42,159 nucleotides of DNA, from NCBI GenBank assembly GCA_015061185.1, contig SUWZ01000030.1, positions 1-42,159 of the forward strand, in the 5' to 3' direction. The translations under genes were made by a program, and so were the position numbers. The DNA comes from Bacteroidales bacterium (lineage in GTDB: Bacteria > Bacteroidota > Bacteroidia > Bacteroidales > Paludibacteraceae). Below, piece by piece: positions 5,523-38,168 of the stretch (position 1 is its first letter; each line of letters opens with the position of its first letter). Under the pieces are notes generated by a model. The model saw only the letters and a list, made by a program, of their open reading frames with translations, was not told the DNA's origin and made no database searches.

Positions 5523-5719
5523 AAGAAGCTATTTAAATTTTATAAAAATAAACTTTAAAGTTTCACTCTCTTATTTTCGGCATCTTTGAGATTCTTTTTA
5601 ACCGATTTACATTATTCCTATTATGATAATAGTCCACCATTTTCTATAAAAGGAATAAAAAAAATAAATTTAAAAATCTCTCTCAAATATGCTCAAAATA
5701 AAATTTAAACATCTTTCTT
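5523..5719. repeat. MITE-like outer element without the nested insert
   Basis: This 197-bp copy has the outer inverted ends AAGAAGCTATTTAAATTT (5523-5540) and AAATTTAAACATCTTTCTT (5701-5719). Both arms align with those of the 25711-26107 copy, but the ~200-bp inner element is absent. The arms join at about 5601-5606, exactly where the insert sits elsewhere. A decayed inner-end motif (AATTTATAGAAATCATCC) lies just outside at about 5478. The rest of the recQ-recJ gap (5352-5522, 5720-5798) is AT-rich with no gene seen. Confidence 0.8.
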
Positions 5720-5798: not shown

Positions 5799-7547
5799 TT
5801 AGGTAGTACTCTTTTTTATATCTTTAATTACCAACTGAATAGTTGTATTACCATTAAAGGTATTTTCCTCAATTGAATAACAAATATCCACAGGATTCAA
5901 ACTCTTGATATAATCATTAAATTCAGACATACCAAAAGCTATACCATTCATGATACATTCTGATTTGGAATCAATTAGCTCCAATTTCAAATGCTCTTGC
6001 TCCTTCCCTACTACTTTACTGGTACCATAATCAAATGTACGCCGAGTAACAAAAATAGGTTTCATATTTTCCGGACCATACGGACTAAATTGTTTCAGTA
6101 AACGGAAAAATTTAGGTGTAATGTCACAAAAATCAATGCAAGCATCTATATCAATCTGAGGCAAACGTTGCTCTTCAGATAAGTTTTCCGACACATATTT
6201 CTCAAATCGCCTCTGAAATTCAGGAACATTTTCCTCCTTCATTGACAATCCAACAGCATACATGTGTCCGCCAAAATTCTCTAACAAGTCACGACATGAT
6301 TCTATCGCCTTATATATATCAAATCCCTGAACAGATCGTCCTGAACCGGTGGCACAACCATTAGAGTGGGTTAAAACAATTGTGGGTTTATAATATCTTT
6401 CGGTTAAACGAGATGCAACAATTCCAACCACACCTTTATGCCAATTAGGGTTATAAACAACAATAGAGCTTTGCGTATTAAAATCATCTGCATTTTCCAA
6501 CTCTTCTGTCGCCTCTTCCGTAATATTTTTATCTAATTTTTTTCGATCAAGATTGTATTGGTCAATCTTTTCAGCCATTTTCTCAAGTGTAATTCTGTCT
6601 GCCGTTGACTCTTCAGGAATAATTAACAACTTTACAGCTTCCTTAGCCGATTGCAAGCGACCCGACGCATTCAATCGAGGTCCGATTTTAAAGACAATAT
6701 CACTTACAGAAATTTCTTTATCAGTGAGGCCACAAACATCAATAATACTTTTCATTCCGACGCAAGGAGACATATTAAGCTGTTTCAAACCATAATAAGC
6801 TAAAATACGATTTTCCCCATTAATCGGAACAATATCTGATGCTATACTAACTGCAAGCAAGTCTAAAAGAGGAATCAAAGATTCAAACTCAATATTGTTA
6901 TTTTGAGCAAAAGCTTGCATCAACTTAAATCCCACACCACACCCGGAAAGATTAGAATCAGGATAAGAAGAATCTACTCTTTTAGGGTCTAACACAGCAA
7001 CTGCATTGGGCAACGTATCATCCGGAGTATGATGGTCGCAGATAATAAAATCAACACCTAAACTATTGGCGTACTCTACTTTTTCAACTGCTTTAATGCC
7101 GCAATCCAATGCAATTACCAAATTGAATTTATTCTTCGCGGCATAATCAATTCCTTGATACGAAACTCCGTAACCCTCCGTATAACGGTCCGGAATATAA
7201 AAATCTACTTGAGATTTAGAACAAAAGAATTTACGCAGAAACTTATATACCAAAGCAACTGCCGTAATTCCATCTACATCATAGTCCCCATAAACCAAAA
7301 TCTTCTCCTTTCGTCCGATAGCTTGATTCAGACGATTTACAGCCTTATCCATATCATTCATCAGAAATGGATCATAGAGTTCGGTTAATTGAGGACGGAA
7401 AAAACTCTTAGCTTCACTAAAAGTTGTAATTCCTCTTTGAACAAGTAATTGACACAGTATCGGACTAATTCCCAACGCTTCAGAAAGGTCATGTTTTTGT
7501 TTTTCTTGCTCAGGTGTAAGAGGAATAAAATTCCATTTACTAACCAT
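5799..7547 (-). CDS. recJ: Single-stranded-DNA exonuclease RecJ
   Basis: 5'-3' single-strand DNA exonuclease of the DHH phosphoesterase family, 582 aa, a usual length. The metal-binding motifs are visible: VYGDYDVDGITAV, then ALDCGI, then ICDHHTPDD (the DHH motif). The DHHA1 domain carries GSGRSVQGFDIYKAI and ENFGGHMYAVGLSM. A C-terminal OB-fold part follows. ATG at 7547 is preceded by an AT-rich leader. It acts with RecQ in recombinational repair, and the two genes would form one unit if the repeat between them were absent. Confidence 0.95.
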   Translation of the reverse strand: MVSKWNFIPLTPEQEKQKHDLSEALGISPILCQLLVQRGITTFSEAKSFFRPQLTELYDPFLMNDMDKAVNRLNQAIGRKEKILVYGDYDVDGITAVALVYKFLRKFFCSKSQVDFYIPDRYTEGYGVSYQGIDYAAKNKFNLVIALDCGIKAVEKVEYANSLGVDFIICDHHTPDDTLPNAVAVLDPKRVDSSYPDSNLSGCGVGFKLMQAFAQNNNIEFESLIPLLDLLAVSIASDIVPINGENRILAYYGLKQLNMSPCVGMKSIIDVCGLTDKEISVSDIVFKIGPRLNASGRLQSAKEAVKLLIIPEESTADRITLEKMAEKIDQYNLDRKKLDKNITEEATEELENADDFNTQSSIVVYNPNWHKGVVGIVASRLTERYYKPTIVLTHSNGCATGSGRSVQGFDIYKAIESCRDLLENFGGHMYAVGLSMKEENVPEFQRRFEKYVSENLSEEQRLPQIDIDACIDFCDITPKFFRLLKQFSPYGPENMKPIFVTRRTFDYGTSKVVGKEQEHLKLELIDSKSECIMNGIAFGMSEFNDYIKSLNPVDICYSIEENTFNGNTTIQLVIKDIKKSTT

Positions 7548-16337: not shown

Positions 16338-16402
16338 CAATTGAAAAAGAGTAATAACAAATGGGGATTAGCAGATAATTATTCCCAACAATAAATAGAG
16401 AA

Positions 16403-17884
16403 ATGGCAAAAGAATTAACACCGCGCAGTGAAGACTACTCACAATGGTATAACGATTTGGTTATAAAGGCAGACCTTGCAGAAAATTCAGCAGTAAGAGG
16501 TTGTATGGTTATAAAACCATACGGATATGCAATTTGGGAAAAGATGCAACATGAATTGGATAGAATGTTTAAAGAAACCGGGCATTGCAATGCTTATTTC
16601 CCTCTGTTTATTCCCAAATCATTCCTTAGCAAAGAGGCTGATCATGTAGAAGGGTTTGCTAAAGAGTGTGCTGTTGTAACTCACTATCGTTTGAAAAACA
16701 ATCCGGACGGTAGCGGCGTGGTGGTTGATCCTGAAGCTCGCTTGGAAGAGGAATTGATTGTTCGTCCTACTTCAGAAACTATCATCTGGAATACATACAA
16801 AAACTGGATTCAATCATACAGAGACCTCCCTATTCTTTGCAATCAATGGGCTAATGTTGTAAGATGGGAAATGCGTACTCGTCTATTCTTGCGCACTGCA
16901 GAATTCTTATGGCAAGAAGGGCATACTGCTCATGAAACCTACGAAGAGGCTGAAGAAGAGGCACAAAAAATGTTGAATGTTTATGCAGACTTTGCAGAAA
17001 ACTTCATGGCTATGCCTGTTGTAAAAGGGGTAAAATCTGCAACAGAACGCTTTGCAGGAGCTGTTAATACTTATACAATTGAAGCATTAATGCAAGATGG
17101 AAAAGCATTACAGTCTGGTACATCTCATTTCTTGGGGCAGAACTTTGCGAAAGCTTTTGATGTGCAATTCCAAACAAGAGAAGGGAAATTAGATTACGTT
17201 TGGGCTACATCTTGGGGAGTATCTACCCGACTAATGGGAGCTCTTATTATGTCTCACTCTGATGATAATGGTTTAGTGTTGCCTCCAAACTTAGCTCCAA
17301 TACAGGTTGTCATAATTCCTATTGCTCAAAAAAAATTGACTCCTGAAATGAATGAGAAAATTGATAAAATCATTGCTAATTTAAAGGCTATGGGAATTTC
17401 TGTTAAATACGATTATGCAGAAACTAAAACTCCTGGCTGGAAATTTGCTGAATATGAATTAAAGGGTGTTCCTGTACGTTTAACTATCGGACCAAGGGAT
17501 TTTGAGAATGGAACAATAGAAGTTGCTCGCCGCGACACATTGGAAAAAGAAAATGTATCAATGGAGGGTATCGAAAATTATGTAAAAGATTTGTTGACTC
17601 AAATTCAAAAGAATATTTACCAAAAGGCTCTTGACTATCGTAAAACTCAAATTAAAAAAGTAGATAATTACGAAGAATTTAAAAAAGAGATTGAGAAAGG
17701 TGGATTTATTTTGGCCCACTGGGATGGAACTGCAGAAACAGAGGCTAAAATTAAAGAGGACACAAAAGCTACAATCCGCTGCATTCCTTTTGATACGTAC
17801 TTAGATGACGACAAAGAAGCGGGCAAGTGTATGGTTACAGGAAAACCTTCTGCTTGTCGTGTACTATTTGCAAGAGCATACTAA
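16403..17884 (+). CDS. proS: Prolyl-tRNA synthetase, archaeal/eukaryal-like type
   Basis: Charges tRNA-Pro; 493 aa. This is the short class II form without the bacterial editing insert. Motif 2 is seen around [27 protein letters not shown], and motif 3 in the [20 protein letters not shown] stretch. An anticodon-binding domain follows ([10 protein letters not shown]) and the chain ends with the typical [10 protein letters not shown], the C-terminal tyrosine found in this subtype. The subtype is normal in Bacteroidetes and is not itself a sign of recent transfer. It has its own promoter. Confidence 0.96.
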
Positions 17885-17905
17885 GAAGGTTACGAATAAA
17901 AGTGG

Positions 17906-17965
17906 TGTATCATAATTGTCAATTGCTTTTCTTTTTTGGAAAGGTTAATTGTAAATTATGGTACA
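17906..17965 (+). terminator. Long imperfect hairpin after proS
   Basis: TGTATCATAATTGTCAATTGC (first 20 bases from 17906) pairs with the inverted segment at 17944-17965 over about 21 positions with a few mismatches, around a 17-nt loop. No clean T-run follows on the plus strand. It may end the proS transcript or protect its 3' end; it lies only 22 bp before the next gene, so it could also act in that gene's leader. Confidence 0.45.
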
Positions 17966-17987
17966 TTGTTTCTAAACTGACAATACA

Positions 17988-19190
17988 ATGAAAAGGATAC
18001 TATTCTCCCTACTCTATTTATGCTCATGTTGGGCAATTTACTCAAATGATAGTGATATTGACTCATTAACAAATCTATGCCAACATGAACTAATCAATAA
18101 AAGAGACAATCGTTCTCCTTTCTTTCTGCAAAAAGAGTCTCAACTACTAATGGAGGAAGAAAAGGGGTTGTACTTTTATCCTTCTACTGATGTATTTGTC
18201 AGAGATGCTGAATATTTCCTTCCAATGACCAAAGGATACACCACATTAGGTTTTCATCTCAACCCTTCTTTTGCCTATAAATTCAATGATAAGGCTCGCA
18301 TTGAAGTAGGTGTACATCTTGTTGGAATAGCCGGGGACAAAAAGGGAATCCGAAGAGTTTTACCCATCGTCAGATTAGAATACAAACCGGTAAAATGGCT
18401 TCATATTGTTGGGGGAACTTTATACGGCAATTTATCTCACGGAATATATGAACCTATGTACGATTTTGATAGGTATTTCTATTCTAATCAAGAAATGGGA
18501 TTGCAAATTCTTACAAATACTCATTACTGGGAGGCAGATATTTGGTGTAATTGGGAACAGTTCATTGTACCCAATGATGATTTTCAAGAGAAATTCACTT
18601 TCGGTTGGAAAAACAATCTAAAATTACCCTTAAATAATATAGAACTTTCTATTCCTCTCGACCTCATGGCTAATCACAGAGGGGGACAATATACTTCGCT
18701 CAAAGATACATGTATAGAAACATTGATAAACATAGCGGTTGGATTGAAGGGGAAATTCATTGGAAATGAGAAAATACATTTTACCGGGGAAGTTCCTTTT
18801 TTTCTGTTTAAAAATCAATCAAACAAAGAACATATACACACTTCCTATCCTCAAGGATGGGGCGTTTACCCAATGTTTACCATTCAAAATAATCCGATAA
18901 AATATGAACGAAATCAATGGCTCGTTAATTTAGGCTTCTGGTTAGGGAATAAATACATATCCGGAAGAGGAAGTTATTTATTCCAATCATGCTCTCTCTT
19001 TGACCCATTATACCGTAATGAAACAAGAAAAATGGGGACTGCTAAAATTTATTACGGACATCAATATAAAGGCTTGAAACTGGGTGTTGAATTTCAAGCC
19101 TACTATGATATAGAAGAAAAAGGGATAGATTACTCTGCCGGAATCTACTTAAATTTCAACAGAAGATTTAAAATTCATAGCTGGAAGTAG
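17988..19190 (+). CDS. Predicted outer-membrane beta-barrel protein
   Basis: Function not recognised; 400 aa. A signal peptide is clear (MKRILFSLLYLCSCWA...). The rest is rich in alternating hydrophobic/polar strands with many Tyr and Trp, for example RIEVGVHLVGIAG and LKLGVEFQAYYDI, and ends in a strand with aromatic residues close to the C-terminus, as outer-membrane barrels do. No porin, TonB or T9SS motif was seen. It probably sits in the outer membrane; substrate unknown. It has no co-directional partner downstream. Confidence 0.6.
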   Translation: MKRILFSLLYLCSCWAIYSNDSDIDSLTNLCQHELINKRDNRSPFFLQKESQLLMEEEKGLYFYPSTDVFVRDAEYFLPMTKGYTTLGFHLNPSFAYKFNDKARIEVGVHLVGIAGDKKGIRRVLPIVRLEYKPVKWLHIVGGTLYGNLSHGIYEPMYDFDRYFYSNQEMGLQILTNTHYWEADIWCNWEQFIVPNDDFQEKFTFGWKNNLKLPLNNIELSIPLDLMANHRGGQYTSLKDTCIETLINIAVGLKGKFIGNEKIHFTGEVPFFLFKNQSNKEHIHTSYPQGWGVYPMFTIQNNPIKYERNQWLVNLGFWLGNKYISGRGSYLFQSCSLFDPLYRNETRKMGTAKIYYGHQYKGLKLGVEFQAYYDIEEKGIDYSAGIYLNFNRRFKIHSWK

Positions 19191-19222
19191 TAAATAACAG
19201 TGTGCCCCCCTATAATAATAAC

Positions 19223-19783
19223 TTATTCATCAATCGTTTTTTTAGGTTTAATTTCAAAAGCCATCCATATCCACGTAAATCCCCAATATATCATCAAAAT
19301 AGAGGAAACCATCACAATGCCCAACATAGAAAACAGCGGAAACGCCAAAAGAAAAATTGAAATTATTAACAACAATATTCCATTAAAAAGGTAAAGTCCC
19401 CATTGCCGATGATTGTTTTTCATTTTCATTGAGGCTCTAATATAAATAATACCTCGATAAAACAATATAATTGCAAATAAAACAGTCAAAAACAACTCTG
19501 ATATATTAACATTAAGAACTAAATAGGCTCCTAAAATAATATCCAACAATCCTGCTATAAACAATAATCTCCACCCTTTAACATCTCTATCATTAGTAGC
19601 AGTCATCATTTGAAAAATCCCTCCCACAAGAAGAGAAATGCCAAATAACGAGGCAATAAATAAATAGGCTTGAGAAGGTTGAAACGCAAAATATATTCCC
19701 ACTAAAAGTGAGATAATTCCCCAAACGAGCAACCATTTCCATTGGGAAAGATAGCCCCAAAAATTCAGATATTGATTTTCCAT
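19223..19783 (-). CDS. HdeD-family (DUF308) membrane protein
   Basis: Small integral membrane protein, 186 aa, made of about six hydrophobic helices in three pairs, the pattern of the HdeD/DUF308 family. Repeated WxxxxGIxxLLxGIxxxxxP-like units are visible (WLLVWGIISLLVGIYF; LLFIAGLLDIILGAYL; LYLFNGILLLIISIFL). HdeD is linked to acid resistance in E. coli, but the role here is unknown. The frame opens at 19816; ATG at 19783 (MENQYLNFWGYLSQWKW) looks more natural because the first residues of the longer form are unlike the family. Confidence 0.75.
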   Translation of the reverse strand: MENQYLNFWGYLSQWKWLLVWGIISLLVGIYFAFQPSQAYLFIASLFGISLLVGGIFQMMTATNDRDVKGWRLLFIAGLLDIILGAYLVLNVNISELFLTVLFAIILFYRGIIYIRASMKMKNNHRQWGLYLFNGILLLIISIFLLAFPLFSMLGIVMVSSILMIYWGFTWIWMAFEIKPKKTIDE

Positions 19784-19871
19784 AACAACAATAATTTTTC
19801 TATTAAACAATACCAATAACCAAAAGTTGGGTAAGTTTGAGGTGAAAGATAATAAAAAAAATCAAACAAAA

Positions 19872-20624
19872 TCAAAGGTTTAAAGAATCATTTATAATCT
19901 CATACGCAATATTTATCTCTTTAGACTTGGCTACTGCTTCTTCTAATCGACCTTTATCCCCTTTTTCAAAACGATCCGGATGATTCTGAAACATCAAATA
20001 TCTGTAGGTTCGCTTAACCTCTTCGTATGCAGTATTCGGCTTAAGACCTAAAACAGCGTACGCATCTATAAGGCGTTGAGATGGAGAGGAAGAGAAGGTA
20101 GAACTATTTTTATACTCAATGAAATATTTTTTATATTCGTCCAAAAATCGATCATAGTCAGACTGCTTTACCGTTCTTTCCATTATAATCTTTAGCACCT
20201 CCAATTCGGCAGGATAAATTCCCTCATTCTGAATTGCAATGTCAAAAAGGAGTTTAACCAAAGCTACCCGATCTTTGTATTCAAGAAATTCACGAGCATC
20301 AAAACTTCTCTTATGAATATTTAAATTACGCTTTTTCAATAAAAGCATTACTTCTTCATCAACAACATTACTAACATATTTATATTTATCACCACAAACA
20401 CTTTTAACGTAATTATGTATAAGAGCTTTTACCTTAGGATTATAATCACAATTATACTTAAGAATGATAGTAAACAGACCGACTGAAACTTTTGCTTTAT
20501 TTATAATAAGTTCTTTTTCTGCTTTATATCCCAAATAAAAAAGTCCCCCATAAATAAAAAAATATAAAAAAAACATCACTACAGAAGACACTATATCATT
20601 CAATATTAAAAGGAGAATATCCAT
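19872..20624 (-). CDS. Membrane-anchored J-domain protein (DjlA-like)
   Basis: Probable DnaK co-chaperone, 250 aa. An N-terminal membrane segment (about residues 10-32) is followed by a helical middle part resembling the TerB-like region of DjlA. A C-terminal J domain begins with AYAVLGLKPNTAYEEVKRTY and holds the diagnostic HPD in FQNHPDRFEKGD. The J domain at the far C-terminus plus an N-terminal anchor is the DjlA plan. Neighbouring HdeD-like gene is on the same strand, 88 bp from the preferred HdeD start. Client proteins are unknown. Confidence 0.8.
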   Translation of the reverse strand: MDILLLILNDIVSSVVMFFLYFFIYGGLFYLGYKAEKELIINKAKVSVGLFTIILKYNCDYNPKVKALIHNYVKSVCGDKYKYVSNVVDEEVMLLLKKRNLNIHKRSFDAREFLEYKDRVALVKLLFDIAIQNEGIYPAELEVLKIIMERTVKQSDYDRFLDEYKKYFIEYKNSSTFSSSPSQRLIDAYAVLGLKPNTAYEEVKRTYRYLMFQNHPDRFEKGDKGRLEEAVAKSKEINIAYEIINDSLNL

Positions 20625-20768
20625 AAGAAAAAAAAATAATTTTTATCATCATTAAACAAGAAAACCAACTTAATTCAGGCTTCTTGAAAAGCAAATGCAA
20701 ATATATGAATTTATAAAAATAGTTGCAATAAATTTAAACTGGTTAATGGATTATTTCAGAGATAATAT

Positions 20769-20776
20769 TAACTTTG
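20769..20776 (+). promoter_or_regulatory. Probable -7 box of glyA
   Basis: TAACTTTG matches TAnnTTTG exactly and lies 38 bp before the glyA ATG, in the divergent gap with the J-domain gene. Confidence 0.6.
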
Positions 20777-20814
20777 CAAAAAAAAGAAAATTCAACTATT
20801 CAAACAGATAGATT

Positions 20815-22095
20815 ATGGTAAGAGACACTGCTATTTTTGAAATTATCGAAAAAGAACGTCAAAGACAATTAAAAGGTGTAGAGCTTATCGCATCAGAAAA
20901 CTTTGTTAGTGAACAAGTTATGCAAGCGATGGGTTCATGTTTAACAAACAAGTACGCAGAAGGTTATCCTGGACACCGCTACTATGGAGGTTGTGAAGTT
21001 GTTGACTTAAGTGAACAATTAGCAATAGACAGATTGAAACAAATTTTTGGAGCTGAATGGGCTAACGTTCAACCTCACTCAGGAGCTCAAGCAAATGCTG
21101 CTGTATTTTTGGCATGTATGAATGCCGGAGACAAATTCTTAGGATTAAATCTTTCTCATGGTGGACACCTTTCTCATGGTTCTCCTGTAAACTTCTCTGG
21201 TTTGATGTTTCAAGCATTGGAATACAATGTAAAAGAAGAGACTGGACGAGTTGACTATGATCAGTTGGAACAAGTGGCTCGCACAGAAAAACCTAAATTA
21301 ATTATAGCAGGTGCTTCTGCCTATTCTCGCGAATGGGATTATGCTCGTATCAGAAAAGTTGCTGATGAAATTGGGGCAATTTTCATGGTAGATATGGCAC
21401 ACCCAGCAGGACTAATAGCAGCTGGGTTGCTTGAAAATCCTGTAAAGTATGCTCACATCGTTACTACTACTACTCATAAAACGTTAAGAGGTCCAAGAGG
21501 TGGTGCTATCATGATGGGAAAAGATTTTGAAAATCCATGGGGTAAAAAAACTCCTAAGGGCGAAATCAAAAAAATGTCTGCACTTTTAGATTCTGCTGTA
21601 TTCCCAGGCATTCAAGGAGGTCCATTGGAACATGTTATTGCAGCTAAAGCTGTTTCCTTCGGAGAAGCACTTCTTCCTGAATACAAAGAATATCAACTTC
21701 AAGTGAAGAAAAATGCAGCTGTTATGGCGCAAGCTTTTATGGATAAAGGTTACAAAATTATCTCTAACGGAACTGATAACCACTCTATGTTGGTTGACCT
21801 TCGTCCTAAATTCCCTGAACTAACAGGAAAGGTTGCTGAAAAAGCTTTGGTTGCTGCTGATATCACTACTAACAAAAACATGGTTCCATTTGATTCTCGT
21901 TCTCCTTTCCAAACTTCAGGATTACGCTTTGGAACTCCTGCTATTACTACTCGTGGTGCAAAAGAGGAATTAATGGTGGAAATTGTGGAGATGATTGATA
22001 CTGTTCTTAATGCTCCTGAATGTGAAAAGACTATAAAAGCTGTTAGAGAAAAAGTTAATTCAATTATGAGTGATTACCCTCTATTTGCATGGTAA
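20815..22095 (+). CDS. glyA: Serine hydroxymethyltransferase
   Basis: PLP enzyme that converts serine and tetrahydrofolate to glycine and 5,10-methylene-THF; 426 aa. Motifs: [10 protein letters not shown] at the start, [42 protein letters not shown], and the PLP lysine K222 in [11 protein letters not shown]. The C-terminal part has [22 protein letters not shown]. Codon use looks like that of highly expressed genes here, as in rpsB and tsf. Monocistronic: own promoter and a strong terminator. Confidence 0.97.
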
Positions 22096-22115
22096 TTTCA
22101 CTTACTCAGGATATC

Positions 22116-22158
22116 AAAAAAAATGGTGCTACTATATAAAATGTGGTGCCATTTTTTT
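22116..22158 (+). terminator. Intrinsic terminator of glyA
   Basis: AAAAAAAATGGTGCTAC (22116-22132) pairs with GTGGTGCCATTTTTTT (22143-22158) around a 10-nt loop, with a few G-T pairs, ending in a T-run. Confidence 0.85.
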
Positions 22159-22328
22159 GTATCCTACAATTAACTTAAAGTTGTATTTCCTAAAAATCAA
22201 TATATAAAATTACTTGATATAATTAACAAAATTATATTAAATCTCTTGAAAATAAGGATGATATAGATAAAAATATTCGGCTAAATGTTTCTTATTTAAC
22301 GGATTTTTACCTATATTTTTTTAAAGAG

Positions 22329-24023
22329 ATGAAAGGAGTAAGCGTTCTCCAAAAACAAATTATCATAGACCCAGACGAGATTCGGAAATTATTAGCTCCT
22401 TGGGGTTATGATAAGACTAACGTGGTCGAATTTTATGATTTGAGCGGTGAATTGAACGATAAGGTTTTTGAGTTGGTTAAGGAGCAAATGAAAGCCATTG
22501 GAGAAAAGAATATCGTTTTTGTTACAGGTGCTCCGGCTTCGGGTAAGTCGAGGGCTTTGAAAAAAAAAGAGATCGCAGAAATGATTAAATTTGATTCATA
22601 CGCTGTTGTGTATGATTCGCAAATGAGGGACTTTGATTATTTTTCTGGGAAATTTACCAATCCTCTTTTGAATGATGGATTTGAAATTGGTTACATTCAA
22701 GTTTACAACGCCCCATATACCACGTTTCAAAATATGCTCAAAAGAGGAATAGATGATGGGAGATTTCTTCCTTGTTTCGCCTTTTTAAATGGATTGACCG
22801 CCCAACGTGACAGGGCAGAGGTGATTCTGAAAAAGTATAAAGACACAAAGAATTTCACCTATTTTGGTGTGGATAATTCGAATAATGAGACAAAAAAGGA
22901 AATCGTTTTGCTAAAAGAGGCGATGACCTTGTTTGATTATAATATAACTGTAAATTTAATTGACAAATTTTTAACTTATGGAAGAGAGCTATTACGACAA
23001 GAAAGAGAGAGAGTTGAGGGAACAAGGTCGATACAAGGAACTCGACAAAATGTTTCTCGAGGAAATCGGATTTCAGGAGATAATGCCGACGGAAGAAATA
23101 ATGAAGCTGCCATTGCCAATGTCTTACGAGGACTACTTTATGTTAAAGTGGCGTTACATGTACAATACCGGAAAGGCTTATTGCACGATGCCGGAACCAT
23201 GGAAAACCCAATGGTTGGAGTGGGAACGCAAGGAAATGAAAAGACATGGGATTTTCCCATACTAAAAGAAATCGAAGCGGATATTGTTAAACTAAAACAC
23301 AAGAAAGATAAATCCGAACAAGAACATGAGATTCTTGAATTGGTTTATCTTGCGGAACAAATTGCAGATCACCATTTGGCAAATCCCGAAAAATATCTTC
23401 CTCCTCACTATAAGGATATGCTGAGAACATCCCTTGATGAGGGGAAAGAACTTCGGGAGGGTGAGTTTATCAAGTCAGAGAGAATTTTTTCACTCAAAGG
23501 CAGAGATTTTGTTATGGGAAGTGAAAAAATTACGGGACCTGATAAAGTTGCGGAAATGTTTCAACATCTAGAGAGTTTTGGAGTAGAAAACACATTTGCC
23601 GTTTTTATTCCCAAGGGGGAAGATGGCGAATCAAAGGCAATTGTACAATATCTCAGTAGCGGAGAACGTTCTTTTTCTCTCATAAATTCAGATGCAATCA
23701 TTCAGGGAGCAATCAGATGTGATGCAAAGGATGTATATTTTGTGCATAACCATCCATCCGGGAATATTGCACCAAGTCCTCAAGACATCCAAATATATTC
23801 AAGACTTTCAGAAGGATTATCATACCACGGAATAAATTTAAAAGAGGGGGTTATCATCAACACTAATACGGGTAAATACGGTATATTTACTTCAACATCA
23901 AAAGAAGAACTGAACAAAACTGCATCAGAAAAATTGCAATCATATAGCATACTGGAATTTTCCAAAACTGTTTTTAGCAAAGATTATAAGCCGGATGAAG
24001 ATTATATTCTGCAATCTTCTTGA
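22329..24023 (+). CDS. Zeta-toxin-like kinase joined to a RadC-type JAB domain
   Basis: One open frame of 564 aa that seems to join two genes. Residues 1-214 form a zeta-toxin-like P-loop kinase: Walker A GAPASGKS at 67-74 and RGIDDGRFLP at 139-148, the RxxxxGRxxP signature of zeta-like kinases in mobile 'polyvalent' proteins. Residues ~311-564 form a JAB/RadC-type metalloprotein with the JAMM motif H473-x-H475-x7-S483-x2-D486 (HNHPSGNIAPSPQD). The middle, ~217-311, is Arg/Gly/Asn-rich and unlike a folded protein; in the +1 frame it encodes a far better 95-aa protein. Removing one T from the T-run at 22968-22972 would end the kinase at 214 aa with TAA. Likely part of a mobile or phage-derived cassette, intact or decaying. 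No MobA or transposase is nearby. Confidence 0.65.
   Translation: MKGVSVLQKQIIIDPDEIRKLLAPWGYDKTNVVEFYDLSGELNDKVFELVKEQMKAIGEKNIVFVTGAPASGKSRALKKKEIAEMIKFDSYAVVYDSQMRDFDYFSGKFTNPLLNDGFEIGYIQVYNAPYTTFQNMLKRGIDDGRFLPCFAFLNGLTAQRDRAEVILKKYKDTKNFTYFGVDNSNNETKKEIVLLKEAMTLFDYNITVNLIDKFLTYGRELLRQERERVEGTRSIQGTRQNVSRGNRISGDNADGRNNEAAIANVLRGLLYVKVALHVQYRKGLLHDAGTMENPMVGVGTQGNEKTWDFPILKEIEADIVKLKHKKDKSEQEHEILELVYLAEQIADHHLANPEKYLPPHYKDMLRTSLDEGKELREGEFIKSERIFSLKGRDFVMGSEKITGPDKVAEMFQHLESFGVENTFAVFIPKGEDGESKAIVQYLSSGERSFSLINSDAIIQGAIRCDAKDVYFVHNHPSGNIAPSPQDIQIYSRLSEGLSYHGINLKEGVIINTNTGKYGIFTSTSKEELNKTASEKLQSYSILEFSKTVFSKDYKPDEDYILQSS
22978..23265 (+). CDS. Hidden small gene inside the zeta/JAB frame
   Basis: A 95-aa protein read in the +1 frame relative to the surrounding ORF. 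It starts with ATG three bases after a TAA in its own frame (22972-22974) and looks like a real protein: acidic/basic helical N-terminus (MEESYYDKKERELREQGRY), then a Trp/Tyr-rich part with MSYEDYFMLKWRYMYNTG and PEPWKTQWLEWERKEMKRHG. The same bases in the long frame give an unlikely Arg/Gly/Asn-rich stretch. Function unknown. No ATG-started JAB gene begins after its stop, so it may once have been fused to the JAB domain through a one-base shift near 23255-23265. Confidence 0.6.
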   Translation: MEESYYDKKERELREQGRYKELDKMFLEEIGFQEIMPTEEIMKLPLPMSYEDYFMLKWRYMYNTGKAYCTMPEPWKTQWLEWERKEMKRHGIFPY

Positions 24024-24266
24024 CATATTGCAGAATATTTATCAAGGCTGCGATTTGGTGAAAGTGGCAAAATTGGGTATTTGCTTGTAAACAAAAAGTT
24101 GAATATTATAGGAAATTTCTTTCTACAAGCATGTGATATAAATCTTTCAAACAAAGATATGATTGTACAAGAGATAGCAGATAATGCAATACGATATTCC
24201 GGTTCAGGAGTCTTTCTATATGGACGATTCGATATGAATCCGTCTATTCTGCAAATCAATTATTAG
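24024..24266 (+). pseudogene. Second, degenerate JAB-like domain after an in-frame TGA
   Basis: Directly after the TGA (24021-24023) the same frame stays open for 80 codons. The product (HIAEYLSRLRFGESGKIGYL..., then LLVNKKLNIIGNFFLQACD and IVQEIADNAIRYSGSGVFLY) follows the strand-strand-helix-strand order of the first half of the preceding JAB domain, with RFDMNPS where HNHPSG would be, so the metal-binding histidines are lost. It has no good start codon of its own (only a TTG at 24081). It is either a remnant cut off by a nonsense mutation or the tail of a read-through product. Confidence 0.5.
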
Positions 24267-24311
24267 AATCATAACACCAATTACCAATTTTTAGTAAAAC
24301 AAAGCTGTTAA

Positions 24312-24341
24312 TTGCGACGTTTTAGGTACATACTAACTTTA
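24312..24341 (+). promoter_or_regulatory. Probable promoter of the YtxH-like gene
   Basis: TTG (24312-24314) lies 19 bp before TAACTTTA (24334-24341), close to the Bacteroidetes TTG-N19-21-TAnnTTTG pattern. The start codon of the gene follows 13 bp later. Confidence 0.5.
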
Positions 24342-24354
24342 AATATATATAACC

Positions 24355-24627
24355 ATGAAAAATTTAAATTGCCTATTAGCTCTTGTTGGAGGAACTGCAA
24401 TCGGAGTCATTACCGGTATGTTGGTTGCACCCAATAAAGGAGCAGAAACAAGATGTAAAATCAAACATTTGATGAGGAAACAAAAACACTTTGCAAAAGA
24501 ACATATTGTTGAATTCCTTAAAAACAAAGGGATCACAATCTCTGATGAAGAATTAAATCAATTATTTCATCATTGCAACTGTGAGTGCGATTGCGAAACC
24601 AAACAAGAGGAAAAATCGCAAAATTAA
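24355..24627 (+). CDS. YtxH-like small membrane protein with Cys-rich tail
   Basis: A 90-aa protein. The first 30 residues form one glycine-rich membrane helix followed by MLVAPNKGAETR, the signature of YtxH/general-stress-like proteins. The middle is basic and helical. The tail HHCNCECDCETKQEEK has four closely spaced Cys and two His, which could bind a metal; this is not a usual YtxH trait. Function unknown; YtxH proteins are often stress-induced. It stands alone, downstream of the zeta/JAB cassette. Confidence 0.75.
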   Translation: MKNLNCLLALVGGTAIGVITGMLVAPNKGAETRCKIKHLMRKQKHFAKEHIVEFLKNKGITISDEELNQLFHHCNCECDCETKQEEKSQN

Positions 24628-24687
24628 AAACTAAGAACGAAAGTAAACTATGAAAAAAAGTATCTAAACCTTCACTTTCGTTAAAAA

Positions 24688-24760
24688 GTGTGTCATAATG
24701 AGAAACAGAAAAAAGGTACTAAAAAATTCCCTTTCTTCCAATTCATACATTATGACACAC
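24688..24760 (-). terminator. Probable terminator of aguB (minus strand)
   Basis: GTGTGTCATAATG (24688-24700) and CATTATGACACAC (24748-24760) form a perfect 13-bp stem with a 47-nt loop. On the minus strand it is followed by TTTTTAA, so it would end transcripts of aguB; it may also stop the YtxH-like gene from the other side. The large loop is unusual for an intrinsic terminator. Confidence 0.6.
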
Positions 24761-24817
24761 ACTCATTTAGATAAACTCATCACAAACAGGTGTTAGTATG
24801 AAACAAGAACACCTCCA

Positions 24818-25693
24818 TCAGTCTCGATAACGTTTAACAATATCTCCATAAAAATCTATCCTTCTATCTCGCAAAAAAGGCCAAATACGACGAACACTTT
24901 CTGAACGTTCTAAAGAAACCTCCACAACTGCTATTTCTTCTTTTTCATCAGAAAGAAGTTCAAGAATTTCACCTTGTGGTCCCGCCACAAAACTACTTCC
25001 CCAGAATTGGATACCATTCGTTTGATGAGAAGGATCTTCCTCCCACCCTACACGATTAACAGAAATAACAGGCAACCCGTTGGCTACAGCATGACCTCTT
25101 TGAGATATTGTCCATGCATCCCGTTGACGAGTTTTCTCTGCTTGGGTATCAGTACTCTCCCACCCAATTGCAGTAGGATAAATCAATATATCAGCCCCGG
25201 CTAACGCCATTAAACGAGCTGCTTCTGGATACCATTGATCCCAACAAACCAAAACGCCTAACTTCCCAAGAGAAGTTTGAATTGGCTGAAAGCCTAAATC
25301 CCCCGGAGTAAAATAAAACTTTTCATAATATGCCGGATCATCAGGAATATGCATTTTACGATACTTGCCGGCAATCGTTCCATCTTTTTCTATTACAACG
25401 GCTGTGTTATGATATAATCCAACAGCACGTTTCTCGAAAAGAGAAAGTACCAAAACGACGCCTAACTCCTTTGCTAACGCCCCAAAATCAGTTGTTGATG
25501 GTCCAGGAATTGTCTCAGCCAAATCAAATTGGTCTGTATCTTCTGTTTGGCAAAAATAAAGTCCATTATGCAATTCTTGCAACACAATCAACTGAGCTCC
25601 TTTCTCTGCACATATACGAATGTTCTGCATCAACTTTGCTTTATTTGCAAGAATATCACTTGAATTACTTTGTTGAATCAAACCTACTTTCAT
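24818..25693 (-). CDS. aguB: N-carbamoylputrescine amidohydrolase
   Basis: Nitrilase-superfamily enzyme, 291 aa, that converts N-carbamoylputrescine to putrescine, CO2 and ammonia. The catalytic triad is complete: E40 in VLQELHNGLYF, K113 in GKYRKMHIPDD, and C150 in LGVLVCWDQWYPEAARL. The motif DDPAYYEKFYFTPGD and length fit AguB rather than other nitrilases. Its pathway partner aguA lies upstream on the same strand, 787 bp away across a repeat cluster. Confidence 0.93.
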   Translation of the reverse strand: MKVGLIQQSNSSDILANKAKLMQNIRICAEKGAQLIVLQELHNGLYFCQTEDTDQFDLAETIPGPSTTDFGALAKELGVVLVLSLFEKRAVGLYHNTAVVIEKDGTIAGKYRKMHIPDDPAYYEKFYFTPGDLGFQPIQTSLGKLGVLVCWDQWYPEAARLMALAGADILIYPTAIGWESTDTQAEKTRQRDAWTISQRGHAVANGLPVISVNRVGWEEDPSHQTNGIQFWGSSFVAGPQGEILELLSDEKEEIAVVEVSLERSESVRRIWPFLRDRRIDFYGDIVKRYRD

Positions 25694-25710
25694 AATCTAT
25701 AATAATAATT

Positions 25711-26107
25711 AAGAAGTTGTTTAAATTTAATTTTAAAAAAAAAATTTAGAGTTTCACTCTCTATTTTCGGCTTCTTTGAGATTCTTTTAGGTGGGTTCTA
25801 TAAATTCATTTCGAGGAATTTTTGAATTTATTTCGTGTAAATTGCTGAGCGAAAGAAGGAAGCAGTGCGAGCACTGTGACCGACTGACAAGCAGCAAATT
25901 GCCGAAAGAAATCAAAAATTACCGAAAAGTTTATCAACCTCCAATTTTCACTTTTTAAATTTTAAACGGTGAATTTATAGAACTCACCTTAAACCTATTT
26001 TTATTCTCCTTTTTTGATAATAGTCCACTATTTTCTGCAAAAGAAGACTAAAAATAGATTTAAAAATCTCTCTCAAATATGCTCGAAATAAAATTTAAAC
26101 AACTTCT
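25711..26107. repeat. MITE-like element, full composite copy
   Basis: The outer inverted ends are perfect over 17 bp: AGAAGTTGTTTAAATTT (25712-25728) and AAATTTAAACAACTTCT (26091-26107). Inside, at 25789-25989, lies the 201-bp inner element with ends AGGTGGGTTCTATAAATTCA and TGAATTTATAGAACTCACCT, an 18-of-20 inverted match. The core holds a CAGTG-CGAG-CACTG hairpin. No coding capacity. This copy is the best reference for the family in this window. Confidence 0.88.
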
Positions 26108-26108
26108 A

Positions 26109-26460
26109 AGATGAGTCTAAAAATTCACCATTTAAATTAGAAATGTATATATCCAATTGGTAAACTTTTCGGTACTTCAGGGTTTATCAAGCACTCGTTA
26201 TGCTTACTCTGCTCCTTCCGTATCCAACCTACACCTAAGATAACTTCTATAAATTACATTTCTGTTTTTTTTGAGAGATACTTTTGAATTCATGTTACCT
26301 ATCTTGTTCCTATTCACTCAGTCTCGATACTCACATCACTTCTTTACAAAAGAGTTCAACCGAAGAAAAATATTCTTCTAAATCATCTCAACCTATTTAT
26401 AAAACTCACCTAAAATAAATTCAAAAAATCTCTAAATCAATTTATAGAACCCAACTCAAG
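26109..26460. repeat. Decayed inner element and scattered inner ends
   Basis: Immediately next to the full copy, AGATGAGTCTAAAAATTCACC (first 20 bases from 26109) and the following ~75 bp resemble the inner element in inverted orientation, including GGTAAACTTTTCGGTACTTC. Further inner-end motifs are CTTCTATAAATT near 26244, TTTATAAAACTCACCTAAA near 26396 and AATTTATAGAACCCAACTC near 26439. The whole aguB-aguA gap therefore looks like a pile of repeat remnants; no gene was seen. Confidence 0.55.
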
Positions 26461-26480: not shown

Positions 26481-27500
26481 CTAAAAAAGACCTTTCGGGT
26501 ACTGCATGGTTACACAATGAAGAGAGCCATGCTGTTTTATTAAAACACGACAATCAATCCCTACTATTTCTCTATCCGGGAAAGCTTTTTCAAGTTGTCT
26601 CAAAGCCACCTCATCGGTTTCGCAACAATAGATAGGAACCAACACAGCGTTATTCATAATCAAAAAATTTGCATACGTCGCCGGCAAGCGTTCACCATCA
26701 TAATAACATGGTGTAGGTAACGGGAGGGGTATCAAATTATATGAATTCCCATCTATTGTTCTAAATTTCTTCAACTCCAGCTCCATTTGATGCAATGCAT
26801 GAAAATGTTCATCATTCTCATCATGACATTGCACATAAGCAATGGTATTCTCATTACAAAAACGAGCCAAAGTATCTACATGAGAATCTGTATCATCACC
26901 GGCGAGATAACCATTATTTAACCATAAAAAACGTTTTGCTCCCAAAGAGATGGATAAACACGCCTCTATCTCTTCCTGAGACAACTGTTCATTACGATTC
27001 ACAGACATCAAACACTCTCGAGTAGTCAAAATAGTACCTTTCCCATCCGACTCAATGCTACCCCCTTCTAATACAAAATGCAAATAACCTTTGTAAGCGA
27101 CATTATCATGGAAAAGAGCAGATTGATACAACTCCTTAGTGATCTGATTATCCCAATTAGAAGCAAACTTCATTCCCCAACCATTAAACTGGAAATCACA
27201 CAAAAAAGGTGTTCCATCTTCAATAACCGTTATAGCACCATGGTCCCTTGCCCAAGTATCATTAGATGGAATTTCCCTAAACAAAATATGATCGAAGGAA
27301 ATTCCATCTAAATCTTTTTTTACCTCTTCAATGGAATGACACACAATCAAGAGCTTTTCTCTCTTTACAATTTCACGAGCAATAGCCACATAACATCTGC
27401 GAACCTCACCCAATATGGGAGCCCAATCACTACTCTCATGCGGCCAAGTTAATTGCACCCCACACTGCTCATGCCATTCCGCCGGAAGAAATAAATCCAT
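26481..27500 (-). CDS. aguA: Agmatine deiminase
   Basis: Hydrolyses agmatine to N-carbamoylputrescine, the step before AguB in putrescine synthesis; 339 aa. It belongs to the guanidino-group-modifying superfamily: SNDTWARDHGAI, VLEGGSIESDGKGT, GDDTDSHVDTLARF and the C-terminal GSLHCVTMQYP with catalytic C329. Length is normal. It starts 12 bp after the serS stop and is probably the last gene of an O-methyltransferase - FKBP - serS - aguA transcript. Confidence 0.95.
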   Translation of the reverse strand: MDLFLPAEWHEQCGVQLTWPHESSDWAPILGEVRRCYVAIAREIVKREKLLIVCHSIEEVKKDLDGISFDHILFREIPSNDTWARDHGAITVIEDGTPFLCDFQFNGWGMKFASNWDNQITKELYQSALFHDNVAYKGYLHFVLEGGSIESDGKGTILTTRECLMSVNRNEQLSQEEIEACLSISLGAKRFLWLNNGYLAGDDTDSHVDTLARFCNENTIAYVQCHDENDEHFHALHQMELELKKFRTIDGNSYNLIPLPLPTPCYYDGERLPATYANFLIMNNAVLVPIYCCETDEVALRQLEKAFPDREIVGIDCRVLIKQHGSLHCVTMQYPKGLF

Positions 27501-27512
27501 ATAGTAACAAAA

Positions 27513-28784
27513 TTAATCAATAATATCAAAACCTGTATAAGATACCAATGCTTTAGGGATACGAATACCTTCAGCTGACTGATTATTCTCTAACAATGCT
27601 GCAACAATACGCGGCAAAGCCAAAGCGCTTCCATTCAAAGTATGGCACAATTGCGTTTTCTTATCAGCACCTTTGAATCTACACTTTAAACGATTAGCCT
27701 GATAAGTATCAAAGTTAGAAACAGAAGATACCTCTAACCACCTATTTTGAGCAGCTGAATACACTTCAAAATCAAAGCATGTTGCTGCTGTAAAACTCAT
27801 ATCACCTCCACAAAGATGAAGAATACGATACGGCAACTCCAATTTCTGCAACAATCCTTCTACATGAGCCAACATCTCTTTATGAGATTCTTTTGAATGT
27901 TCAGGCGTATCAATTCTCACAATTTCAACTTTCGAAAATTCATGAAGGCGATTCAATCCTCTTACATCCTTTCCATAAGAACCTGCCTCACGACGAAAAC
28001 ATTGTGTATAGGCACAATTCTTTATAGGCAACTCTTTTTCCTCAAGAATTACATCTCTATAAATATTTGTAACCGGCACCTCGGCTGTAGGAATCAAATA
28101 CAAATCGTCTAATTGGCAATAATACATCTGTCCCTCTTTATCTGGTAATTGACCTGTACCATATCCGGACGCTTGATTTACGACCGTAGGAGGCATAACT
28201 TCCAAATACCCTGCTTTCCGTGCTTCATCCAAGAAAAAATTAATCAACGCACGTTGTAATTGAGCTCCTTTCCCCTTATATACGGGGAATCCTGCGCCAG
28301 TGATTTTCACTCCTAATTCAAAATCGATCAGGTCATATTTTTTTGCCAATTCCCAGTGTGGTAATACCTCTCCTTTTAAGTCCGGAATATCATTCCCTGT
28401 TTTTACAACAACATTATCTTCAGCTGTTGCTCCTTCAGGAACTTCATCGTATGGCATATTAGGAATCGTACAAAGAATTTCATTAATTTTAAGTTGAGCC
28501 GATTCCATTTCTGCTTGCAAGTTTTTAGTTGATTCTTTTAATGAACTAACCTTTAACTTAACTGCTTCTGCCTCATCTTTTTTACCATCTTTCATCAATT
28601 GACCTACACTCTTTGACAAGGTATTAATTTCAGACAAAGTACTATCCAATGAAGTTTGAGAAGAACGTCTGACTTTATCCAAACTTAAAACCTCTTCTAT
28701 AGGGGCTTTGGCATCAAATCTTTTTTTTGACAATTTTCGGATTACCTCTTCCGGATTTTCCGTAATAACTTTAAGCGTTAACAT
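27513..28784 (-). CDS. serS: Seryl-tRNA synthetase
   Basis: Charges tRNA-Ser (and tRNA-Sec where present); 423 aa, class II. The N-terminal ~110 residues form the long tRNA-binding coiled coil (LDSTLSEINTLSKSVGQLMKDG onward, here in part). Motif 1 lies around VMPPTVVNQASGYGTGQLPD, motif 2 is CAYTQCFRREAGSYGKDVRGL with LHEFSKVEIV, and motif 3 is LNGSALALPRIVAALLENNQ. Complete. It is 26 bp from the FKBP gene upstream and 12 bp from aguA downstream. Confidence 0.97.
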   Translation of the reverse strand: MLTLKVITENPEEVIRKLSKKRFDAKAPIEEVLSLDKVRRSSQTSLDSTLSEINTLSKSVGQLMKDGKKDEAEAVKLKVSSLKESTKNLQAEMESAQLKINEILCTIPNMPYDEVPEGATAEDNVVVKTGNDIPDLKGEVLPHWELAKKYDLIDFELGVKITGAGFPVYKGKGAQLQRALINFFLDEARKAGYLEVMPPTVVNQASGYGTGQLPDKEGQMYYCQLDDLYLIPTAEVPVTNIYRDVILEEKELPIKNCAYTQCFRREAGSYGKDVRGLNRLHEFSKVEIVRIDTPEHSKESHKEMLAHVEGLLQKLELPYRILHLCGGDMSFTAATCFDFEVYSAAQNRWLEVSSVSNFDTYQANRLKCRFKGADKKTQLCHTLNGSALALPRIVAALLENNQSAEGIRIPKALVSYTGFDIID

Positions 28785-28810
28785 ATTTTCGTTAAATTAT
28801 AATTTTACGA

Positions 28811-29329
28811 TTACTCTACATTCACAACTTTTTTCAATTCCATTTCATAAATCAAAGCGGAATAAGCCTCAACAGAAACTGTATCACTTTCTCCATAAAA
28901 AATCTTCCCAGAAGATCCATACATCAAGTAATACGGCAAATAGATTGTATGATTAGAGCCTTCATTCATGTATCTAATCCCTATATGCAATCCTTCCATT
29001 AATTCATCCATACACACTTGTTTTTCAACCTCTTCAAATACTTTACCATCTATTCTTTTTCCTACATAGGCAATCTGCACAGAATCATTAGCATCCGGTT
29101 TCTTTCCACTTCCTTTTGAATTAATTCTAAACAAACATCCTCTGTCATCAGAGATAATTCCTTCAGCATTTTTTAACGAACTTAAAAAAGCTTCTCCCTC
29201 TTCTTTATTCTTTTGCATTTGCGCTATTATGTCTTCCTTTTTTTCTTCTTCATCTTTGTCACACGATAAAAGAGCAAAACAAATAAAAGGAATTAATAAC
29301 CAAATCTTATTCACATTCAAACTATTCAT
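28811..29329 (-). CDS. FKBP-type peptidyl-prolyl isomerase lipoprotein
   Basis: Predicted lipoprotein, 172 aa. The lipobox ALLSC follows a hydrophobic stretch near residue 23, and the acidic linker DKDEEEKKED comes after. The rest is an FKBP domain: VQIAYVGKRIDGKVFEEV, MNEGSNHTIYLPYYLMYGSS, and YSALIYEMELKKV. Probably folds exported proteins in the periplasm. GldI of gliding bacteria is also an FKBP lipoprotein, and a T9SS pair lies nearby, but equating this protein with GldI would be a guess. It starts 4 bp after the O-methyltransferase stop, so the two are coupled. Confidence 0.85.
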   Translation of the reverse strand: MNSLNVNKIWLLIPFICFALLSCDKDEEEKKEDIIAQMQKNKEEGEAFLSSLKNAEGIISDDRGCLFRINSKGSGKKPDANDSVQIAYVGKRIDGKVFEEVEKQVCMDELMEGLHIGIRYMNEGSNHTIYLPYYLMYGSSGKIFYGESDTVSVEAYSALIYEMELKKVVNVE

Positions 29330-29333
29330 ATTT

Positions 29334-29969
29334 CTACAATTTTCTTATTAAAGTCATACCATCACGAATAGGCAAAATTATCTTTTCCACCAATTGATTA
29401 CTCACTAAATAATCATTAAACTTCTGAATTCCTAACGTTTGAGCATCTTTAGAATCTTCTAAAACATGACCATCCCACAATGTATTATCAGCAATAATCA
29501 ATCCTCCTTTACGGATCTTGGGAAAAACAATTTCAAAATAGTCAACATAATGACGCTTGTTACCATCGATAAAAGCAACATCAAATTCCATATCTAAATC
29601 AGGCAACAAACTCAATGCATCACCAATATGTAGTTTTACTTTATCTCCATTGGGAACCTTATCAAACAGATTTATCAAAAACTCTTCCATCTCATCGTTT
29701 ATCTCAAAAGTATGAATCTCTCCATGCGATGGCAACGCTTCTGCCATACATAAAGCCGAATATCCGGTAAAAGTCCCAATCTCAACAATTTTTTCAGCCC
29801 CAACCATTGCGCAAAACATCTTCAACATGCGTCCTTGCAAATGACCGGAAAGCATACGGGGCTTTAGCGTGTACAGATGTGTATCACGCGTCAACTTTTT
29901 CAAGGCTTCTGGTTCTTCATCTATATGAGAAAGAACGTAAGCATCCATATTTAAATTTTGCATATCCAT
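29334..29969 (-). CDS. SAM-dependent O-methyltransferase
   Basis: Class I methyltransferase of the catechol/caffeoyl-CoA O-methyltransferase type, 211 aa. SAM site VEIGTFTGYSALCMAEALP, then IHTFEINDEMEEF, FDVAFIDGNKRHYVDYFE and GGLIIADNTLWDGHVL with the metal-binding Asp/Asn residues. The frame opens at 30008, but a clear promoter (29978-30008) lies inside those codons, so translation must start at ATG 29969 or 29963. The substrate is unknown. First gene of the four-gene unit. Confidence 0.88.
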   Translation of the reverse strand: MDMQNLNMDAYVLSHIDEEPEALKKLTRDTHLYTLKPRMLSGHLQGRMLKMFCAMVGAEKIVEIGTFTGYSALCMAEALPSHGEIHTFEINDEMEEFLINLFDKVPNGDKVKLHIGDALSLLPDLDMEFDVAFIDGNKRHYVDYFEIVFPKIRKGGLIIADNTLWDGHVLEDSKDAQTLGIQKFNDYLVSNQLVEKIILPIRDGMTLIRKL

Positions 29970-29977
29970 TTCAACTG

Positions 29978-30008
29978 CAAAGATAAGAAACTGTTTTGAT
30001 ATTCTCAA
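29978..30008 (-). promoter_or_regulatory. Promoter of the O-methyltransferase-FKBP-serS-aguA unit
   Basis: On the minus strand, TTG (30006-30008) is followed after exactly 20 bp by TATCTTTG (29978-29985), a full match to the Bacteroidetes consensus. The transcript would begin near 29972, only a few bases before the start codon, so the message is nearly leaderless. Confidence 0.7.
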
Positions 30009-38085: not shown

Positions 38086-38168
38086 AAGAAGTTGTTTTAA
38101 ATTTTATTTCGAGCATATTTGAGAGAGATTTTTAAATCTATTTTTATTCTTCTTTTACAGAATTCTCT
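38086..38168. repeat. Solo outer arm of the MITE-like element
   Basis: AAGAAGTTGTTTTAAATTTT at 38086-38105 and the next ~60 bp match the right outer arm of the 25711-26107 copy in inverted orientation, ending near TCTTCTTTTACAGAA. The other arm and the inner element are absent. It lies between the divergent DUF3109 and nadE promoters, ending about 10 bp before the nadE -7 box. Confidence 0.75.

Follow-up and report, generated by a model that had tools for sequence, protein, structure and literature searches.

Polyvalent proteins, encoded by phages and conjugative elements, include zeta-like kinases as well as RadC-type JAB domains among their domains (Iyer et al., 2017, PMC5512222), as the initial annotation of the locus described here had noted. 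In that account, the polyvalent zeta-like kinases phosphorylate cell-wall precursor sugars, RadC domains probably process nucleic acids or nucleotides, and a kinase locus of Verrucomicrobium contains short frames that resemble recombined cassettes; the main text of that paper uses neither the word overlap nor the word frameshift. A literature search for zeta toxins together with RadC/JAB retrieved no paper on the combination, the sole match being, by its title, on soil metagenomics. Same-strand overprinted genes are described as few in bacteria (PMC4683798). Here we analyzed contig stretch SUWZ01000030.1 (42,159 nucleotides, hereafter the window) of a Bacteroidales bacterium, in which a zeta-like kinase and a RadC-like JAB domain share one long frame, and a 95-amino acid (aa) frame lies across their joint in another phase. 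The substitution pattern marks this small frame as a real, conserved protein-coding gene.

The long open reading frame (ORF 22329-24023, + strand) encodes 564 aa from an ATG and shows, in this order, the motifs GAPASGKS (from 22527), RGIDDGRFLP and HNHPSG...PSPQD; it joins, as had been claimed, a zeta-like kinase and a RadC-type JAB domain. We refer to the kinase part as Z and to the pre-JAB region together with the JAB domain as J, both in one frame, to the 95-aa frame, which starts with its own ATG and is shifted by +1 from the long frame, as S, and to the long frame across S as L (Table 1). Arg, Gly and Asn make up 33% of the long frame across S, versus 12% of S, 16% of Z and 13% of J, in agreement with the initial annotation, which had described the long-frame middle as rich in these residues and the +1 frame as the more natural protein.

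A scan of genome contigs found one relative of the cassette, L001, in a congener, a Paludibacteraceae metagenome-assembled genome from yak caecum, and all substitution rates given below come from this single allele pair. The gap-free block compared (23014-23250) has 237 nucleotides (nt) and 74 differences, which fall on the first, second and third codon positions as 19/16/39 in the S frame and as 39/19/16 in the long frame (binomial P 0.0005 for the third-position excess of 39/74 in S). Identical residues amount to 51/79 in S and 35/78 in the long frame. The ratio of nonsynonymous to synonymous differences per site (pN/pS) was 0.32 for S (bootstrap 0.21-0.47), 1.31 for the long frame across S (0.86-2.28) and 1.48 for the third frame (0.95-2.71). 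Because of this third-position excess and low pN/pS, S is judged a real, conserved protein-coding gene. The long frame does no better than the third frame, and its middle is therefore, by the same measure, not a selected sequence and at most a flexible linker; apart from its openness and a marginal excess of similarity, the constraint expected of a protein is found in S and not in the long frame. The flanking parts behave as S does: differences by codon position are 54/29/89 in 420 nt of Z (pN/pS 0.40) and 16/10/27 in 174 nt of the pre-JAB region (pN/pS 0.36), so that, with 62% identity between the alleles, Z, S and pre-JAB each differ in the way expected of constrained proteins. That the locus encodes one continuous 564-aa protein, with the 95-aa frame as a chance ORF, agrees with the open frame and with the occurrence of both ends in polyvalent proteins, and is nevertheless highly improbable: the allele pair contradicts it by the third-position excess in S and by the pN/pS of the long frame, and S as a chance ORF was rejected on these substitution phases and ratios. 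L001 does have an open long-frame middle, as such a fusion would need; this middle is unconserved as protein, whereas the 95-aa product is conserved.

The L001 cassette lies at the same chromosomal site, adjoining glyA (named by its sequence, without a family search), and the GlyA proteins are 100% identical at the rounding of the search. The cassette is present in two of 16 genomes of the genus; the empty site is unreadable in the other 14, whose loci, taken with 1.5-kb flanks, align at glyA and at most about 45 bp beside it only. Decay is evident in both known copies and is heavy in L001. In L001, Z has a TAG in codon 17 and loses its frame before the Walker A motif, and J is interrupted by a TAA; in the window, a TGA ends the J frame 80 codons early. 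The initial annotation had let the cassette run to 24266, and this end point is meaningful, since the J frame continues past the TGA to that position and the same tail is found in L001. The decay of both copies, the stop within the window J frame and the divergent middle described next go beyond what had been noticed before.

Identity between the window and L001 is 93.6% in 16400-22424, falls to 62.3% in 22425-23560, and returns to 97.1% in 23561-25690 and 93.6% in 26500-29990. The divergent island holds the core of the kinase, all of S and pre-JAB. Identity also dips in the intergenic stretch 25700-26400, so a dip alone is not special; the island differs from other dips in lying inside a gene, in its sharp ends and in its coding-type substitution pattern, and is read as a swapped allele carrying these three parts. 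Behind the island, the 97.1% identity of 23561-25690, compared with 93.6% further out, could mark a wider recombined tract.

Z alone matched PF06414 (Zeta_toxin) above the cut-off (24.3 versus 22.3 bits), while the whole 564-aa frame scored 19.6 bits and remained below it; the kinase had been called zeta-like from its motifs, and the separate search upholds that call. Z also aligns with a zeta-like kinase domain from a genome of the same family (190 columns, 31% identity). A relative of Z lies within a 1349-aa open frame, of which a 1034-aa part has two sub-threshold matches, to Zeta_toxin (22.0 bits, cut-off 22.3) and to LPD3 (17.5 bits, cut-off 27). Among the 50 PDB fold matches listed for the Z model, PezT and epsilon/zeta structures took ranks 1, 2, 7, 12, 13 and 22, all weakly (E 0.03-0.63), and the first two viral fold matches were an uncharacterized phage protein (E 0.006) and a zeta-domain phage protein (E 0.008). 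No + frame of at least 50 aa that could encode an epsilon-type antitoxin upstream of Z starts between the end of glyA (22095) and 22329. Weak PADLOC matches of Z to GajB and other proteins (best E 4e-5, 20.7 bits) were taken as a shared P-loop. As a separate observation, two same-family genomes encode 645-648-aa proteins with a Z-related kinase domain (L006:304-2250, + strand, and L052:1342-3279, - strand); both start, judged by eye, like a signal peptide or lipoprotein, and the one from L052 gave a nucleoside-hydrolase-like match to PF01156 (E 2e-6, 27.9 bits) under the cut-off of 34.2.

J matched PF04002 (RadC) with 57.9 bits (cut-off 22.1) and contains HNHPSG, in line with its earlier description as RadC-like, and falls far under the NCBIfam RadC models (NF000642, 49.4 of 180 bits; TIGR00608, 41.6 of 133.85 bits). 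In one-sequence comparisons, J aligns with part of a 1857-aa open frame from another genome of the class (147 columns, 28% identity, E 3e-14), and its tail weakly resembles the region after the JAB domain in that frame (E 6e-4). The JAB part alone had distant matches in 13 phage records, all below 60% identity. The 564-aa frame matched 114 plasmid records, also below 60% identity, and the 20 of these that were listed cover the pre-JAB/JAB part only; it had no match in phage records and no confirmed match in viral contigs.

Taken together, the Pfam matches to zeta and RadC families, the literature on polyvalent proteins, the relatives within 1857- and 1349-aa open frames, the profile of the island and the lesions of L001 lead us to regard the locus, with fair but far from full confidence, as the chromosomal remnant of a conflict gene of polyvalent type, probably derived from a mobile element, which encodes three real proteins or protein parts, Z, S and J, with S in +1 across the Z-J joint. 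Z would be a zeta-like sugar or nucleotide kinase that may phosphorylate a cell-wall precursor or a nucleotide. Translation of S may begin at a separate start within the kinase-JAB message, and S would most likely act as a partner or antitoxin of Z, since it is small, predicted to be helical, adjoins Z and shares the divergent island with it. The JAB domain would be the more constant enzymatic part.

Several results weigh against this relic reading. While the kinase and JAB parts exceeded their Pfam cut-offs when searched separately, S had no match in Pfam, PHROGs, NCBIfam or PADLOC, none in 50,697 phage and 72,556 plasmid records, no confirmed match in viral contigs, and chance-level matches only in the PDB (E 0.59 by sequence, 9.4 by fold). 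Besides the window's own genome, a search of 295 genomes of the order with S gave two weak matches, and a two-row alignment of S gave three in 395 genomes of the class (all five with E 0.002-0.008); only two sequences carry S. The AlphaFold model of S is all helix with low confidence (predicted local distance difference test, pLDDT, 64), and that of Z is weak as well (pLDDT 57), with PezT at ranks 1-2 and no PDB match reaching E 0.001. No mobile-element gene was recognized beside the cassette, where the neighbors examined were glyA and a YtxH-like gene, and the antitoxin role is argued from size, place and co-variation only. As for the five weak matches to S, L023, L030 and L031 sit in long frames unrelated by eye, and the matched stretches of L024 and L032 contain stops; all five were taken as chance.

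The same searches bear on a further explanation, in which a Z-S-J polyprotein formerly contained S in frame, and frameshifts on either side then moved S out of phase. Polyvalent proteins commonly chain several domains, as this explanation would have it; however, the two alleles agree in the relative frame of S and J and in the stop directly behind S, the constraint on S spans their divergence, and the searches of order and class genomes gave no relative with Z, S and J in one frame. We therefore consider such a displacement improbable.

The openness of the long frame leaves two accounts of how S came to lie across the joint. The long frame has no stop across S in either allele, although 69% of the synonymous sites of S differ between them. 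As control, we used 75 ORFs of at least 200 codons (33,910 codons) from eight stretches of the same genome: the +2 frame was open in four of 5,598 overlapping 81-codon windows and in none of 5,387 95-codon windows, and a +2 run of 83-87 codons occurred in five of the 75 ORFs, the longest +1 run being 116 codons. An open frame of such length is thus rare per position and not unheard of per genome.

On the first account, to which we give somewhat less than an even chance, the overlap is a true overprint: Z, L and J form one fused polyvalent-type protein, and S is nested on a linker that is kept open and hydrophilic and is otherwise free. Apart from the shared openness, this account draws on the codons of S. 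When its synonymous codons were redrawn at the usage of Z and pre-JAB, such openness had a probability of 0.0003 (window) and 0.0006 (L001); at S's own usage, however, it was 0.13 and 0.08 (jointly 0.0095 if independent), and codon permutation gave P 0.22 and 0.046. T never occurs at sites where its presence would interrupt the long frame with a stop (0/17 in the window and 0/16 in L001, versus 12/35 and 9/33 elsewhere; Fisher P 0.004 and 0.019), but the shortage of T before AA, AG or GA is unspecific, since J outside the overlap shows it too (20/66 versus 68/122, P 0.0007), and 12 of 13 control genes are also mildly T-poor at such sites, the last one being equal to two decimals. GC content at third positions of S stays at 0.59 (window) and 0.62 (L001) despite the synonymous divergence, while window Z has 0.37 and J 0.28. 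Synonymous usage in the window fits the genome in the long frame (+0.096) and not in S (-0.066), a gap that favors the +2 frame to this extent in 1.9% of 941 gene windows, and such a pattern is a reported signature that separates ancestral from de novo frames (PMC3744397); the gap is smaller in L001 (+0.033 versus -0.071), however, and full-codon usage slightly favors S in both alleles (0.119 versus 0.107 and 0.075 versus 0.020). The similarity of the long frame between the alleles is marginal overall, with P 0.017 and 0.036 when only the number of changes was matched, 0.11 and 0.21 when transitions and transversions were matched, and, with this latter matching, 0.05 and 0.035 among open redraws. 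Moreover, the case was selected for its long frame, S may simply have unusual codons, and the kinase frame of L001 stops at the GA tract.

That stop is the core of the second account, an accidental fusion, whose chance we also place a little below one half. Here the cassette would be an ordinary three-gene string with short overlaps, in which the kinase stop that overlaps the TTG of S, as in L001, has been removed in the window by the 2-nt difference in the tract. In L001, the TGA at 6687-6689 overlaps a TTG at 6686 of the S frame exactly where the gap-free conservation of S begins. GA tracts are prone to slip, the long frame lacks protein constraint, and the five control ORFs with long +2 runs show that such runs arise. 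An accidental fusion, however, requires each allele to have about 80 open long-frame codons, and Z and J to share a phase by luck; the Z of L001 is broken elsewhere, so the 2-nt difference of this allele could just as well be a lesion, and residues of S ahead of the tract seem, by eye, to be partly shared as well. If the tract state of L001 is ancestral, the fusion in the window is accidental; if that of the window is ancestral, the stop in L001 is a further lesion. Overprint and chance fusion thus stand about even, and one allele pair cannot decide between them. The initial annotation had read the locus as a three-part mobile cassette whose fusion is either an accident of frame or a real overprinted or frameshifted system: its domain identities and the real 95-aa protein hold, and the choice it left between the two is still balanced.

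A stronger version, which we hold to be rather unlikely, takes the locus for a toxin-like polyvalent protein with its own partner or antitoxin overprinted in the interdomain linker, the linker being selected for openness only and the kinase and its regulator being exchanged between strains as one island. Read in one frame, the shared DNA would then give a flexible tether, and read in the other, a conserved regulator. A real overprint would be a same-strand nested bacterial gene whose constraint resides in the nested rather than the host frame, and it would illustrate the sheltering of a second gene by a disordered linker. In any event, S is a new conserved protein that annotation would readily overlook, because the long frame hides it.

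Table 1. Features of the kinase-JAB cassette in the window.
Feature	Coordinates	Strand	Evidence
Z, zeta-like kinase part	22329..22976	+	PF06414, 24.3 bits; 31% identity over 190 columns to same-family kinase domain
S, orphan protein, +1 to long frame, conserved core from about 23014	22978..23265	+	51/79 residues identical to L001
L, long frame across S	22978..23265	+	No stops in both alleles; pN/pS 1.31
GA-rich tract, 2-nt length difference to L001, directly 5' of TTGA	23000..23017	+	Alignment
J, pre-JAB region and RadC-like JAB (HNHPSG), same frame as Z	23265..24020	+	PF04002, 57.9 bits
TGA (24021-24023), then 80-codon tail continuing the J frame	24021..24266	+	Tail frame also in L001 (7642-7974)
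Divergent island, ends inside Z and just 5' of JAB	22425..23560	+	62% DNA identity to L001

The cassette is flanked by glyA on one side and the YtxH-like gene (24355-24627) on the other; among the 16 genomes of the genus, this adjoining gene is found only in the same two as the cassette. Scans for promoters (5 versus a mean of 8.8) and terminators (2 versus 1.6) gave about the level of shuffled sequence. Repeats of at least 14 nt in 21900-24800 comprise four two-copy direct families only, with no inverted pairs. Elsewhere in the window, 165-284, 5554-5718, 25905-26176 and 38100-38164 all match L001 9395-9646 and look like dispersed repeats.

Compared with described polyvalent proteins, the cassette shares both domain types, and open frames of 1857 and 1349 aa contain relatives of J and Z, respectively; it differs in having two recognized domains only, with an orphan in another frame between them, in its decay, and in its chromosomal neighbors on both sides, common to L001, with no mobile gene recognized beside it. 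Its two domains lie in one open frame, but the middle is unconserved as protein and the kinase frame of L001 stops before it. With epsilon/zeta and PezAT systems, it shares the kinase family, whose Pfam cut-off is passed by Z alone, and a small, predicted helical neighbor; unlike in those systems, this neighbor is encoded downstream of the kinase in an overlapping frame and had no significant sequence or fold match in the libraries searched, no epsilon-type gene is found upstream, and the kinase frame continues into JAB. J resembles RadC proteins in HNHPSG...PSxxD and in its PF04002 match, and differs from them in scoring far below the RadC model cut-offs. Finally, the locus is like same-strand overprints in the nesting of S and in the codon-usage signature of the window allele, and unlike them in that the nested S is the constrained frame, whereas its host frame shows no detectable protein constraint.
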